Of a stretch of 20,078 bases of DNA, positions 3,784 to 9,846 are shown one piece after another (the first letter of the stretch is position 1; every line of letters begins with the position of its first letter). A model generated the notes under the pieces. It was not told the DNA's origin. It did not search any database and saw only the letters and a program-made list of their open reading frames with translations. Origin of the DNA: a virus; the IMG/VR virus record IMGVR_UViG_3300027754_000542, positions 1 to 20,078 of that record; one strand, given 5' to 3'. Both the position numbers and the translations under genes were made by a program.

Positions 3784-4249
3784 ATATTTCCATCCAAGTA
3801 TGGTCGCCCATGTATTTTACCTTAGTTTGATAAACATAGTCAATTGGTGGACCACTGCTCCAATCTGTTGGACCATGGTGCGTTAATATCATTTGTTGTT
3901 TTCTACTATCCCAAGCTAACCAATAACATTGTCCCATTACAATTTGAAATTGATACTCTGCGGCATGAACTGCATCAGTAACATCTAATCTGCGTTTGAT
4001 ATCATCTGCTTGTTTTTGTAAAACTGTGACTAGTTCCATAATACGATCATATTCCTGCTGGGCATACATCCTAGCATGATTAATCATTATGTCTTTTTGT
4101 TTGGTAACTGGTATTAGATCAAATTTAGGTCCACCGGCTTCTGTTGGATACGGAGTTACATTCCTATTAAAAAATGGAATGATACTGCCGTCTACATTTG
4201 CATCAAAACTATTTCTGCCCTTGGCAACATTAGATTTTTCTTCGTCCAT
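3773..4249 (-). CDS. DUF2452-like (C1orf50-like) conserved protein
   Basis: This 158-residue soluble protein has no known function. The central part resembles the DUF2452 family, whose human member is C1orf50: a PYPTEAGGPKFDLIPV segment (33-48), a long helix MYAQQEYDRIMELVTVLQKQ (61-80) continuing as ADDIKRRLDV, then AAEYQF (96-101), a YWL strand (109-111) and the end segment GPTDWSSGPP (126-135) before YMGDHTWMEI (146-155). The family call is from memory of the pattern and is moderate. The first 30 residues look disordered. The gene is coupled to the ferredoxin stop (TAATG) and overlaps dCMP deaminase by 11 bases, so it is made together with the ferredoxin and the clamp loader, probably early. 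There are no cysteines in a metal-binding pattern and no nucleotide-binding loop. Confidence 0.75.
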   Translation of the reverse strand: MDEEKSNVAKGRNSFDANVDGSIIPFFNRNVTPYPTEAGGPKFDLIPVTKQKDIMINHARMYAQQEYDRIMELVTVLQKQADDIKRRLDVTDAVHAAEYQFQIVMGQCYWLAWDSRKQQMILTHHGPTDWSSGPPIDYVYQTKVKYMGDHTWMEIYER

Positions 4250-4572
4250 TATTCTTCTAATAGAGTAATTTTATTTGGCTTGTTTTTCCATTCTTCAGCG
4301 TCTGGCAATGCTGATTTCTTTTTTGTTATAACGGGCCATTTTTTACTTAACCTAGTGTTAATTTCAGTCCAAAACACTATATTGGTATTTACATCGTTGT
4401 CTGCTACAATAGCATCAACAGGGCATTCTGGAACGCACACTCCACAGTCAATACATTCATCTGGATTAATTACTAAAAAATTTGGACCTTCATAAAAGCA
4501 ATCAACGGGACATACTTCAACGCAATCAGTATGTTTACATTTGATACAATTTTCAGTCACTAGATAAGTCAT
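4249..4572 (-). CDS. fdxA: FdxA-type 7Fe ferredoxin ([3Fe-4S][4Fe-4S])
   Basis: This 107-residue ferredoxin of the Azotobacter FdI/FdxA family is full length. Cysteines are at 9, 12, 17, 21, 25, 40, 43, 46 and 50. By the known family assignment, 9/17/50 bind the 3Fe-4S cluster, 21/40/43/46 bind the 4Fe-4S cluster, and 12 and 25 are the conserved free cysteines. The family-specific [19 protein letters not shown] region and the C-terminal LPDAEEW helix region are both present, so it is not a truncated 2[4Fe-4S] form. It would carry single electrons in the host cytoplasm. The ATG overlaps the clamp-loader TGA (ATGA), and the stop overlaps the next start (TAATG). The close match to proteobacterial FdxA suggests acquisition from a host; its electron partner is not identifiable here. 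Confidence 0.95.
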
Positions 4573-5920: not shown

Positions 5921-6138
5921 TATTCACCTTTGTTTGGTTTGCCTGTAAAATACTCGCTAACAACATCTTCACGTTTGCGAATAATCTTTCCACCTGGACC
6001 TAGTTCATCACCACGAGCATTAACTCTAGCATTGCCTACTGCCAATGTTAATTCGTTTTGATTTCTAAGTTTTTCCATATCAACTTCTCTACCGTTAGCA
6101 CTACGATAAACAGTTCTTTGTTGTTCTTTCATTGCCAT
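5920..6138 (-). CDS. Unrecognised 72-residue phage protein
   Basis: This is a small, highly charged protein with no membrane segment. The N-terminal half has a helix-like VDMEKLRNQNELTLAVG stretch (19-35); the middle NARVNARGDELGPGGKIIRK (36-55) is the most distinctive part and looks like a short conserved motif. I know no function for it. The ribosome binding site CAGGAG lies seven bases before the ATG at 6138, giving a clear start. It lies 26 bases after the DnaE-like gene and is coupled by a TAATG overlap to the GroES-like gene, so it is made from the same transcript. The basic Arg/Lys-rich composition would fit binding to nucleic acid or to a partner protein, but this is speculation. Confidence 0.82.
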   Translation of the reverse strand: MAMKEQQRTVYRSANGREVDMEKLRNQNELTLAVGNARVNARGDELGPGGKIIRKREDVVSEYFTGKPNKGE

Positions 6139-6164
6139 ATTAATCTCCTGGATTATGTATATAC

Positions 6165-6674
6165 TTATCTTAAGAAGTCCTGCCAGTCTAAATTATATTT
6201 TAACGGGTCTATCTTATGGACTCCAATCAAATATAGTACATAACTAGCCACACTACTGCCACGACCTACACCCCATAGTATCTTATTGTCTCTACAATAG
6301 TCTACGAAATATTTAAGCCAACGAAGCAAATCCATCATGTTTCTTCGCTGAAATTCTAGTAATTCTTCGCCAACTCTCTGTAGTTGATCTTGATCCTTAC
6401 ACTGATCCAACACCCACTTGGCAATGTCCATTGTTTTGTATTCTTGGGGCATTAGCCAATCATTTTGACAAGCGGAGTCAAAATCACTGATGGAAATGTC
6501 ATAAAACGATTCATCAATGTGTTTTAGCTGTATGTTTGAGGTTTCTGCAAGAGCCCGTGTTTCTTTATTGTTTTCGCAGAAAATTTGATCTAGATATTGG
6601 GATTTACCTTTGTACAATAAATCTACAATATCAAAAGATGTGTATACTATGTTACCGTATTTGTCAGATGTCAT
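6165..6674 (-). CDS. Stand-alone DnaE (Pol III alpha)-like fragment protein
   Basis: This is a 169-residue protein whose second half matches the start of the polymerase (palm) domain of C-family DNA polymerase III alpha. It shows a helix LLEFQRRNMMDLLRWLKYFV (105-124), VDYCRDNKILWGVGRGSSVA (124-143, compare the family's GPGRGS core) and IDPLKYNLDWQDFL (155-168). In full polymerases the next residues lead to the catalytic PDxDxD motif; here the protein stops with DFLR, so the catalytic aspartates are missing and no continuation was seen after the stop. The N-terminal 60 residues begin DKYGNIVYTSFDIVDLL, which looks like a genuine N-terminus. There is no good ribosome binding site before the ATG. 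It is the first gene of a three-gene cassette. A regulatory or accessory role in replication is possible; polymerase activity is unlikely. Confidence 0.8.
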   Translation of the reverse strand: MTSDKYGNIVYTSFDIVDLLYKGKSQYLDQIFCENNKETRALAETSNIQLKHIDESFYDISISDFDSACQNDWLMPQEYKTMDIAKWVLDQCKDQDQLQRVGEELLEFQRRNMMDLLRWLKYFVDYCRDNKILWGVGRGSSVASYVLYLIGVHKIDPLKYNLDWQDFLR

Positions 6675-6698
6675 ACAAGTATTTTAACTGACTTGTAT
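6673..6698 (-). repeat. 8-bp inverted repeat around the -10 box and start codon
   Basis: ATACAAGT (6673-6680) and ACTTGTAT (6691-6698) are perfect inverted copies separated by ten bases. The spacer contains the -10 box TAAAAT (minus strand, 6686-6681), and the arm nearest the gene includes the first two bases of the ATG at 6674. It could be an operator or, in a read-through RNA, a hairpin that hides the start codon. Confidence 0.85.
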
Positions 6699-6709
6699 TA
6701 AATTGTCAA
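6681..6709 (-). promoter_or_regulatory. Near-consensus sigma70 promoter for the DnaE-like/GroES cassette
   Basis: On the minus strand TTGACA (6709-6704) and TAAAAT (6686-6681) are separated by 17 bases: a full -35 and a five-of-six -10 match. The promoter lies within the last codons and stop of the 78-residue gene. The expected start falls at about 6674, the A of the ATG of the DnaE-like gene, which would make the transcript leaderless or nearly so. Confidence 0.8.
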
Positions 6710-6920
6710 GATCTTTATTACGTTTTTGGTTTTGTTGCTCCCAGGCTCTTGCATGCCTGGCCTTTAACTCTTCCCTATGCATTTCAATAAACAATCCAAT
6801 TTGATTTCTTATATTGGGATTGTTGACCATCCAATACTTTTTACTCAAATCTTGAATTTTACTTTCAAGTTCTGAATCTTTAAGTTCGGATAAGTTGTCA
6901 ACTAGGGGATTAATTACCAT
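6684..6920 (-). CDS. Unrecognised 78-residue helical phage protein
   Basis: This small, charged, almost entirely helical protein has two predicted helices, about residues 9-29 (SELKDSELESKIQDLSKKYW) and 34-72. They are separated by NNPNI, giving a likely helical hairpin. It has no signal peptide or membrane segment. I do not recognise a named family. Its ATG overlaps the stop of the tail protein gene as TAATG, so it is translated with the structural genes. Its last codons contain the -35 box and spacer of the promoter for the next cassette, and its stop overlaps the -10 box. It may be a small virion-assembly or chaperone-like factor, judged only from its place at the end of the structural module. 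Confidence 0.78.
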   Translation of the reverse strand: MVINPLVDNLSELKDSELESKIQDLSKKYWMVNNPNIRNQIGLFIEMHREELKARHARAWEQQNQKRNKDLDNLIQVS

Positions 6921-7489
6921 TATGTAAATTCACCTAAGTATTTCAAATAAACAGTAGTTCCAGCATTATAAGTCCATGCTTCAACTACACGAAAAGCACC
7001 GTTTATGTTTAGAGTAAATGGACTTGGAAATGCCGCACCATCACCAGATTTTAAAATTGCTCCACCAGCTTCGGTAGAAAATACTACAGTTCTTGCACTA
7101 ACAGTGTCGCTTTTTAAATGCAATCTAATTCTAGCATACAAATCGCTTGCTGGCCAATTGGTAAATTGTAAAGTTGCATTTCCAGCAAGGGTGTAAATTT
7201 GTAGTGGGCCGTTTTCAAGATCAATACTTGTAGTGGTACTGATAGTTCCGTTATTTCTAACAGATCCATACACTTGATTCATTTCAGCATTTTCAATCAT
7301 GTTACCATTGAAATTGTTATCAGTGTTCAATTTGGCGGCGGTGGTCTGTAAGGTTGTGATTTCAGACTTGGCTGTGTTCAACCCTGTTTTGATATTTGTA
7401 AAATTATCTCTAAAGCCTTGACTGTTGTTGTCTTGCCCAGCAATTGGGAACGCTCCGTCGATATTTGTTGTTGTTATTGCACTGGTCAT
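6920..7489 (-). CDS. Putative phage tail/baseplate protein (189 residues)
   Basis: This is a 189-residue protein with a short N-terminal module ending SQGFRDNFTNIKTGLNTAK (about 23-41). That segment resembles the FxxNFxxL attachment-like segment at the start of the two fibre-like genes upstream. A coiled-coil-like stretch (residues 35-55) leads to a beta-rich C-terminal part with Thr/Asn/Gly-rich strands (about 80-189), as in fibre knobs and baseplate decorations. There are no cysteines or enzymatic motifs. The ATG overlaps the TGA of the 786-residue gene (ATGA). The call of virion structural protein is inferred from composition and neighbours; which particle part it belongs to cannot be told from the sequence. 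Confidence 0.7.
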   Translation of the reverse strand: MTSAITTTNIDGAFPIAGQDNNSQGFRDNFTNIKTGLNTAKSEITTLQTTAAKLNTDNNFNGNMIENAEMNQVYGSVRNNGTISTTTSIDLENGPLQIYTLAGNATLQFTNWPASDLYARIRLHLKSDTVSARTVVFSTEAGGAILKSGDGAAFPSPFTLNINGAFRVVEAWTYNAGTTVYLKYLGEFT

Positions 7490-9846
7490 ATGGTTACCCT
7501 GTCATCTTTAAATACTAGATATTTATCGTCACCCGAACCGGTCACGGAATCTATTATATATCTGTCTACTGTATAGTCTAAATCTTTAAAATCAAAGCCG
7601 CTATACTTGATGTTTAATAAAATATCTGCACTAGTTCCGGGTTTACAGTAGCATATTGGCACTGCTAGTACAAATCCAAGTTCTTGTTTAGATTCGTCTT
7701 GGATACTGCGCATCCACAGAGGCAAATAATTACGTTCTGTTGAGCCTACTGTGGCTAACTGTTTTCTCCATAAACTAATTGAGCTTGGAAAACGCTTGGT
7801 TGGATTACTATCACTGACCAACAAATTAGTTTGATCTATGGTTATTCTATTATCTGGTCTAGGGGCAAACGGTTCAGTTCGTTCTAATAGTGCTGGATTT
7901 TCACGCCCAGCCCATAAAGAGTTGCTAGAATCAACTGTGATTTTTTTTGGATCCTTTGCTAGTCCTTTTAAACTTGAACTTAGATATGTTTTACCTTTTT
8001 CTAAAGGATCTATCATTTCAACATAAATGATTTCGTAAACCACATCGTTAGTACCAGTGATTTTTGCCTTGGCAACTTTGATATCACCAAACACAAATCG
8101 TTTCTTTTTATGATTCAATCCCATAGCTGAAACATATTGTCCAGCAGTTTTTGTTTCTATACCACTATACACGGTCATGGTCAAATCACGCTGTATACCA
8201 AAGTTAAGATCGTTGGGTCTGTAAATACTACTTGCTGGAAAAGTGTTACTGTTATTTAAAAATGTGTTTAACTTGCTACGTTTTTCTCTAGTCATGAATG
8301 TTCGTGCTACAATATTACTGTACAATCTATCATTAGGTGTATCAACATCTAAAATAAACTTCCTAGTAATACTGCTGTAACCAAACTGATCTTGTGCTTT
8401 GATTGTAAATGTATATTTTTTATCAATGCTAGTAGTTCCACCATCAAATGTTTGATTAGTGTACGGACCATCTGAGAATGTAACAATACCAGGAGTATTT
8501 AAAGTTCCGTATTGATTTACTTTTCCAGTAATTTCACCATCTAACTGTAAAGTTAATCCTGGTGGCAAACTGCCACTCAGTAATGAATACACAACTGTTG
8601 CGCCTTCAATAATGCTTGTGGCACTTACTCTTAAATTGCTAATAAAGTTTGCATCAATTACTCCAAGATATTCGGCACTGTCCCAAGTTAGTACACTATC
8701 AACTGCACCCAATGTTCTAAGTGTAAAGGTACGTTTTGCATAGGCTATTTCGTTGTTGAGTCCATAGCGTGTGGCTGTTACAGTAAATTTGTAAGTTTCA
8801 GTGACTGTGGGTTGATAGGGAATGACACCGAATAATTCTGATGTAACTAGGTCTAATGTTAGTCCTGGTGGTAGTGCGCTGGCCGTAGTATCTGGATTTA
8901 CGGTATCCAATGTGTAGACAATTGGGCCTAATTCAACAGCATCATAACAATCTAAAACGATTGTCAAATAGTTATTTGCTCTTTGTAGGCCTAAATTTTC
9001 AGGAGTTAACCAAACAGGATTATGTAGGTATGAACCATCAACAGTAAATACACCACTGGATGCAAATGCTATTGTATTGTCTGCACGTAGGTAATCTTCA
9101 CCAACAACGTATATTTTAAATTTACGTTTACTGACAGTGTCACCATCGCTAACTGACACAATGAATTCATAATTTCTGTTTAATTTTTTAGGTGCTTTGG
9201 CTGGTATAAAATAATCATAAAACACACTGTCGTAGCCAAAACTCTCGTAGCCGTTATCTGCACGTACACCAAAGTCATATCCAGCAACGTCAAATAAATC
9301 ATTGCCGTAATTGCCATTACCAACAATGGACTCTGATATGGCAAATAATGGTTTGATTAGGCCAACAATTTTACCATCTTCAGTTAATGTTAGTCCTGGT
9401 GGTAAATCACCATCGCCACTGGAAATAAAATATTTTAAAACTTGTCCAGCAGTAGTATCAGTATCTGTAACACTTATTTGAAAATTAACAAAACTTGAAT
9501 CTAAAACAAAATATAAACTATTTGTTCCTACAGGTAATGCGCCTTCACTAGTATTAAAAACTGGAACATCTGCACCTTCTACAGTGATCTTAAAGGTTCT
9601 GTCAGATATTTGATTGTTCAGTGTTGCTCTAATACAAAAGTTAAATTCAGTGGTTCTTGGAACTTCAAACGGTGTTCCCACAATTTTAGCATTAACTATA
9701 CGTAGGCCAGTGGGTAACTGTCCTGATATTACCCTAAACTGTGCAGATGTAAAACTGGTAGGCAGTGATAAATCAATGATAGATCCTTCTTGTATAGTTC
9801 CAAAACTATATCCAGAGAGTTGATTCCAAAGATTTACTGTGGCCAT
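7486..9846 (-). CDS. Large virion protein with four Ig-like (He_PIG) repeats
   Basis: This is a 786-residue protein with at least four putative-Ig (He_PIG/cadherin-like) repeats, each marked by an LPxGLxx core followed by a G-x-I/L-x-G strand: QLPTGLRI (43-50), DLPPGLTL (147-154), ALPPGLTL (324-331) and SLPPGLTL (426-433). Between them are Asp-rich turns such as VTDTDTT that could bind calcium. From about residue 507 a different C-terminal domain begins (RTFMTREKRSKLNTFL) and continues to the end without Ig-like motifs; it may anchor the protein to the particle. Ig-like domains on phage tails often give weak adhesion to cell surfaces. It lies between fibre-like genes and starts six bases after the preceding stop. 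The role as a baseplate or tail-surface protein is inferred. Confidence 0.8.
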   Translation of the reverse strand: MATVNLWNQLSGYSFGTIQEGSIIDLSLPTSFTSAQFRVISGQLPTGLRIVNAKIVGTPFEVPRTTEFNFCIRATLNNQISDRTFKITVEGADVPVFNTSEGALPVGTNSLYFVLDSSFVNFQISVTDTDTTAGQVLKYFISSGDGDLPPGLTLTEDGKIVGLIKPLFAISESIVGNGNYGNDLFDVAGYDFGVRADNGYESFGYDSVFYDYFIPAKAPKKLNRNYEFIVSVSDGDTVSKRKFKIYVVGEDYLRADNTIAFASSGVFTVDGSYLHNPVWLTPENLGLQRANNYLTIVLDCYDAVELGPIVYTLDTVNPDTTASALPPGLTLDLVTSELFGVIPYQPTVTETYKFTVTATRYGLNNEIAYAKRTFTLRTLGAVDSVLTWDSAEYLGVIDANFISNLRVSATSIIEGATVVYSLLSGSLPPGLTLQLDGEITGKVNQYGTLNTPGIVTFSDGPYTNQTFDGGTTSIDKKYTFTIKAQDQFGYSSITRKFILDVDTPNDRLYSNIVARTFMTREKRSKLNTFLNNSNTFPASSIYRPNDLNFGIQRDLTMTVYSGIETKTAGQYVSAMGLNHKKKRFVFGDIKVAKAKITGTNDVVYEIIYVEMIDPLEKGKTYLSSSLKGLAKDPKKITVDSSNSLWAGRENPALLERTEPFAPRPDNRITIDQTNLLVSDSNPTKRFPSSISLWRKQLATVGSTERNYLPLWMRSIQDESKQELGFVLAVPICYCKPGTSADILLNIKYSGFDFKDLDYTVDRYIIDSVTGSGDDKYLVFKDDRVTI

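Follow-up and report, generated by a model that had tools for sequence, protein, structure and literature searches.

A conserved sigma70-type promoter in the coding end of a small phage gene, with a predicted leaderless DnaE-like mRNA and a possible hairpin on read-through RNA

RNA hairpins block translation of the phage T4 genes e (lysozyme), soc, 49 and I-TevI on transcripts that were initiated upstream (PMC3014915, PMC2988022). For e and I-TevI, the RNA from the late promoter has a ribosome-binding site, and it is this site that the hairpin hides (PMC3014915, PMC2988022). Leaderless mRNAs such as that of lambda cI have a 5'-terminal AUG and no Shine-Dalgarno sequence (PMC9031893), and in Deinococcus-Thermus the -10 box is found directly beside the ORF for leaderless expression (PMC12340547).

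The locus described here precedes a DnaE-like gene in a window of 20,078 nt (the whole stretch analysed, positions 1 to 20,078 of IMG/VR virus record IMGVR_UViG_3300027754_000542). It resembles the four T4 genes in that a promoter lies close before the start codon, in that the 5' arm of an inverted repeat would be present only on RNA begun upstream, and in that the gene is located downstream of other transcription units. Unlike e and I-TevI, it has no Shine-Dalgarno sequence to hide, its promoter is of the sigma70 type and its local RNA is predicted to be leaderless; unlike in T4, the sequence and position of the hairpin differ between relatives. A predicted 5'-terminal AUG without a Shine-Dalgarno sequence is shared with lambda cI, but here the promoter lies within the end of another gene's coding sequence, and several genes of these phages share the layout. 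The -10 box adjoins the ORF as in Deinococcus-Thermus, whereas the phage site keeps a full -35 box with 17-nt spacing, and its -35 box and half of its -10 box are in coding sequence.

Layout of the site and its neighbourhood

All promoter and repeat elements of the site were read from the letters of the window and are located on the minus strand. The features are as follows:

6920-6684, minus: gene of 78 aa, with the promoter in its last eight codons and stop codon
6709-6704, minus: -35 hexamer TTGACA, within the codons CTT GAC AAT (Leu-Asp-Asn) of the upstream ORF
between the two hexamers, minus: spacer ATTTAATACAAGTCAGT, 17 nt
6698-6691, minus: 5' arm of the inverted repeat, ATACAAGT, within Ile-Gln-Val codons
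6686-6681, minus: -10 hexamer TAAAAT, its TAA being the stop codon of the upstream ORF
6680-6675, minus: discriminator ACTTGT, 6 nt, belonging to the 3' arm
6680-6673, minus: 3' arm of the inverted repeat, ACTTGTAT, taking in the AT of the ATG
6674-6672, minus: ATG of the DnaE-like gene, 6 nt 3' of the -10 box
6674, minus: inferred transcription start at the A of the ATG, placed by spacing
6674-6165, minus: DnaE-like gene of 169 aa, phrog_11127, PF07733 over residues 86-168
5558-5536, minus: intrinsic terminator ATAGGGCC-ATTGACA-GGCCCTAT-TTTTTT, ending the DnaE-like/72-aa/GroES-like unit
5549-5521, minus: clamp-loader promoter TTGACA-17-TATAAT, which shares sequence with the terminator of the DnaE-like operon

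On the minus strand AAAGATC is followed by TTGACA, ATTTAATACAAGTCAGT, TAAAAT, ACTTGT and ATG ACA, with the C of CTT preceding TTGACA, and the -35 box and spacer read as codons CTT GAC AAT TTA ATA CAA GTC AGT of the 78-aa ORF. Promoter, stop codon, inverted repeat and start codon are packed into 38 bp. The hexamer pair has 11 of 12 consensus bases at a 17-nt spacing, as in sigma70-type promoters, and the pattern TTGACA-N16-18-TANAAT occurs twice in the window (0.17 expected from shuffles), the second copy (5549-5521) being the clamp-loader promoter. The inverted repeat is a perfect match of 8 bp with a 10-nt loop, flanks the -10 box and is the only copy in the window, even with three mismatches allowed. 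A reading made earlier from the sequence alone had named this repeat, a TTGACA-17-TAAAAT promoter, an RNA start at or next to the A of the ATG at 6674 and the lack of a visible ribosome binding site. The repeat and promoter were confirmed in the window, and the present analysis adds that the -35 box and the 5' arm lie within the end of the upstream 78-aa ORF (6920-6684). No Shine-Dalgarno sequence was found before the DnaE-like ATG in the window, no terminator between the upstream structural gene and this ATG, and no Rfam match within window positions 6000-7500. An 8-bp repeat by itself is unremarkable in AT-rich DNA; the site stands above chance because the promoter is present in 163 of 163 relatives retrieved by protein similarity (best 80 loci per query) and because its -35 codons are synonymously frozen (see below).

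The DnaE-like gene matches phrog_11127 (7.7e-41) and PF07733. Its product (6165-6674) is a stand-alone protein of about 169 aa in the relatives seen and stops at an FLR/FLN motif, presumably before the region that holds the catalytic aspartates of DnaE. No Pfam or PHROG match was obtained for the 78-aa protein, and no tblastn match among annotated phages. The DnaE-like gene, a small gene and a GroES-like gene (where annotated) occur in the same order in the jumbo phages MIJ3, Atu_ph07, SCTP-2, Phosso and Vibrio 2.275, a clamp-loader-type gene being next in most of them; the TTGAC/-10 promoter at the DnaE-like gene is missing in all five. In Vibrio phage 2.275 (L113, 2538-2876) the protein upstream of the DnaE-like gene resembles the 78-aa family by eye, without the C-terminal LDxLI motif and without the promoter.

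Several further features of the window were recorded. At the clamp-loader promoter, terminator and promoter form one fused element (5558-5521, minus strand), which separates the GroES-like gene from the clamp loader: TTGACA makes up the terminator loop and inner stem, and the T-run is the promoter spacer, as in AAAGGGTC-TTGACA-GACCCTTT...TATAAT. Eight distinct versions of this element were seen (window, L275, L278, L280, L289, L170, L195 and L051), with stems that differ yet remain complementary. A promoter-like GTGACA-16-TAAAAT at 18771-18744 (minus strand), within a 2015-aa ORF, matches the DnaE promoter at 89% identity over 27 nt. A 107-aa ORF at 4249-4572 (minus strand), located in a phage operon, has two cysteine clusters and looks by eye like a 4Fe-4S ferredoxin. 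The T4-type late promoter TATAAATA was rejected: the window has no exact copy of it, and copies with one mismatch are rarer than in shuffled sequence.

Promoter conservation and the leaderless start

Relatives were retrieved by alignments of the DnaE-like protein, which carry no promoter information, and also by the upstream protein. The 163 DnaE-retrieved loci (111 after clustering at 85% identity) are the best 80 per query, and more distant ones may differ. Within this best-80 set, TTGAC-N18-TAANNT was present in 163 of 163 loci, the -10 box being TAAAAT in 105, TAAACT in 34, TAATAT in 22 and another sequence in two; its second base is invariably A and its sixth T. The upstream ORF stops with TAA in 140 of 140 non-redundant relatives from the same best 80 loci per query, and its codons under the -35 box are CTT for Leu in 139/140 and GAC for Asp in 140/140. 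Both codons are kept in the relatives at <72% identity (64/64 each). For contrast, all six Leu codons occur at the next Leu, and other Asp residues are encoded by GAC in 23%. Codon freezing rules out TTGACA as a by-product of the protein motif LDxLI. In L063 the Leu under the -35 box is replaced by Ile with codon ATT, by which TTGACA is kept, and L252 (upstream of 2501) has a second, noncoding promoter copy in tandem, which follows the upstream stop codon and precedes the ATG by the usual distance. The site is almost certainly a host sigma70-type promoter embedded in the 3' end of the upstream small gene, in its final eight codons and its stop codon.

The gap between the -10 box and the ATG is 5-8 nt in 163 of 163 loci and exactly 6 nt in 138 of them (best 80 per query), which places the start codon at the expected +1 and, across the family, supports the RNA start proposed earlier for 6674. 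A GGAG, GAGG or AGGA at -16 to -4 was found before none of 141 non-redundant DnaE-like starts but, in the same phages, before 74 of 93 clamp-loader starts, so that the missing ribosome binding site extends to the relatives. The arrangement also recurs at other genes. Downstream of 85 other promoters of these phages the first ORF of at least 40 codons starts 5-8 nt after the -10 box in 16 cases, exactly 6 nt after it in 10, and 9-13 nt after it in one; a second, leadered group of ORFs forms a broad class at about 22-31 nt. The pattern TTGAC-N18-TAWNWT-N5-8-ATG was counted about 40 to 47 times in 12 long contigs, the DnaE site included, compared with four times in the reversed control, and 19 of 30 such sites examined open an ORF of at least 40 codons. 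RNA structure is avoided downstream of the DnaE-like AUG in the relatives, from +9 to +26. The invariant promoter in the 163 loci, the frozen codons, the lack of a Shine-Dalgarno sequence and the excess of ORFs at 6 nt together make a conserved leaderless sigma70-type promoter well supported. Judged from sequence, the DnaE-like mRNA is very probably leaderless, its predicted first nucleotide being the A of the AUG.

Dense clusters of TTGACA-17-TATAAT, resembling early regions, are found in the long contigs G001 and G005 (the records behind L050 and L144), for example at 9.5-19.4 kb of G001. The upstream small gene and promoter are also present in L098 and L105, where a different short ORF takes the place of the DnaE-like gene; both loci were found by the promoter pattern itself and are for that reason not independent evidence for its conservation.

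Inverted repeats and the read-through RNA

The sequence of the arms is not conserved: L004-L010, at 70% protein identity, carry AGCTGTAT or AGCAGTAT instead of ACTTGTAT. Pairing of the 6-nt spacer between -10 box and AUG with the sequence upstream is more extensive for native than for swapped spacers. A clear excess of runs of at least five pairs was seen in only three of 23 registers tested, registers 1, 5 and 6 (z=3.0, 3.5 and 5.9; together 22 sequences against 3.9 expected), under permutation and swap nulls that leave shared ancestry partly in. These registers give loop lengths of 10, 6 and 3 nt about the -10 box; one of the other 20 reached z=3.1, without any long run. In the register of the window, ATACAAGT/ACTTGTAT of the window and L033 is changed on both sides to ATTAAAGTA/TACTTTAAT in L055 and to ATAAATGTAT/ATACATTTAT in L195, and is partly compensated in L238. 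Other registers are represented by GTCAAC-taaaat-GTTGAC (L133), TCAACTA-ata-TAGTTGA (L065) and TCAGCTA-aaa-TAGCTGA (L038), and a further hairpin class, TAGGC-tatgc-GCCTA, has the AUG in the loop. Where the codons of this AUG-loop hairpin are lost (L052, L065, L090), another hairpin class is present. Repeats of at least 6 bp in the three registers are isolated on the DnaE tree (12 rows, 12 changes), which was built with FastTree and has weak support in many places. The covariation check proposed in the sequence-only reading gave a divided answer, the original arm sequence being lost in L004-L010 while compensated versions recur independently.

Only the relatives nearest the window show the excess. 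For the retrieval sets the labels freshwater (sets S1 and S2, nearest the window) and marine (set S3) are used as inferred shorthand. Arms are compensated in a minority of the freshwater-set relatives, a strong excess over the null, and not in the marine set. Read-through RNA of the freshwater sets folds more stably with native than with permuted spacers (mean percentile 0.142, p=5e-14, n=81; at <72% identity 0.173, p=6e-7, n=36), and repeats of at least 6 bp number 11 against 2.8 expected. In the marine set, where the promoter is kept, structure is not in excess (p=0.14); the promoter can therefore do without the hairpin. Spacer hairpins were also considered as a genome-wide feature and rejected, since 85 non-redundant other promoters show no excess of repeats in the -35/-10 spacer (3.85 compared with 3.63, p=0.34). 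Selection for structure in the freshwater lineage is probable.

In every hairpin class the 5' arm is upstream of the inferred local RNA start, and in the window it is upstream of the -10 box (6698-6691). Provided that transcription begins at the position given by the spacing, these hairpins could fold on read-through RNA only. For the window, the AUG is predicted to be free with a probability of 0.02 in read-through RNA and of 0.80 in leaderless RNA. Across relatives the probability of an unpaired AUG in read-through RNA is 0.307, compared with 0.267 with shuffled spacers (p=0.45), and in some hairpin classes the AUG is in the loop or directly after the stem. These values give no sign of selection on pairing of the AUG itself. 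The earlier proposal that read-through RNA hides the AUG stands as far as the placement of the arms is concerned and is not supported for the hiding of the AUG. Since the AUG is buried no more than with shuffled spacers, any selected structure would be structure beside the AUG, not pairing of the AUG. The analogy with T4 gene e, drawn in the same reading, fits the placement of the arms; the classes with the AUG in the loop or after the stem, and the marine set without excess structure, speak against hiding of the AUG in the form first proposed.

A stem at or beside an AUG hinders 30S binding. A mechanism can be proposed in which the local promoter would yield a leaderless mRNA that is translated through recognition of its 5'-terminal AUG without a Shine-Dalgarno sequence, while the same AUG would also be carried by any read-through RNA from the structural genes. 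In the freshwater lineage, the window included, the unconstrained bases that separate the AUG from the -10 box may be tuned to pair with a 5' arm present on read-through RNA only. Ribosome start on that RNA would then be hindered unless the upstream gene is being translated, as translation would melt the stem, and the local promoter would be left in control of dose and timing. That the structure blocks translation of read-through RNA is conceivable, at somewhat less than even odds. The full switch between two transcripts, with the AUG open on the leaderless local mRNA and shut on the read-through mRNA by a rapidly re-evolving hairpin, is more tentative still. Overall the hairpin idea is a plausible hypothesis, which the comparison of sequences supports better than a single window could.

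Alternative readings and biological meaning

The promoter could be real and the mRNA leaderless while the palindromes have no function, having arisen by template-switch (quasi-palindrome) mutation that copies the fixed upstream coding sequence into free bases. Such an origin is favoured by the diversity of registers and sequences, by the absence of a long repeat from most relatives and by the isolated occurrences on the tree; the spacer is, moreover, the one stretch free of constraint. Its main difficulty is that the excess is restricted to freshwater relatives, with none in marine ones of the same layout; the presence of another hairpin class in L052, L065 and L090, which lack the codons of the AUG-loop hairpin, also speaks against it. 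On balance this origin is rather unlikely, though it is a serious competitor and the most probable of the alternatives. The sequence-only reading had itself offered the palindrome as a repressor operator over the -10 box. As worked out here, a repressor dimer of phage or host origin would bind it and silence the promoter at a later stage of infection. In favour are the symmetry that registers 1, 5 and 6 show about the -10 box and some long, operator-like sites such as ATGTCAAC-N6-GTTGACAT in L156, but half-sites 3, 6 or 10 nt apart, or 5 nt apart around the AUG in other members, are ill-suited to one dimer, and the dyad occurs once in the window and once per contig, contigs of 105, 66 and 55 kb included. 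An operator is disfavoured by this varied geometry and single occurrence and is unlikely; a regulon of such operators was rejected, as no second copy of the dyad was found, the geometry is not constant and the dyad does not recur at other promoters.

Translation mainly by coupling on long transcripts would make the promoter minor and the missing Shine-Dalgarno sequence a matter of reinitiation 9 nt after the stop codon, in keeping with stop-to-start gaps of 8-11 nt in the relatives; it does not account for the freezing of CTT GAC, for the constant 17-nt distance to TAANNT or for the noncoding promoter copy of L252, and is the least probable of the three. Promoters of the N4 hairpin type, taken with their generally known features, were also compared, some members having a 7-bp stem and a 3-nt loop; they were rejected, as loops of 6 and 10 nt and an invariant -35 box do not fit. 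The best explanation as a whole, with a probability of roughly 0.6, remains a promoter in the coding end of the upstream gene, a leaderless mRNA and a hairpin acting against translation start on read-through RNA.

Leaderless genes become a predicted class in these phages, recognisable by a gap of exactly 6 nt between -10 box and start codon, and a broad family of uncultured phages has a promoter fixed at the DNA level within the codons and the stop codon of a gene. The two-transcript switch, if true, would combine hairpin gating of the T4 type with leaderless initiation, the function of the hairpin being kept while its sequence and register turn over. Should the hairpin part hold, it would give the phage a compact way to count only one of two transcript classes, and would be a case of RNA structure maintained despite shifting sequence and position, of a kind that ordinary covariation searches would miss.
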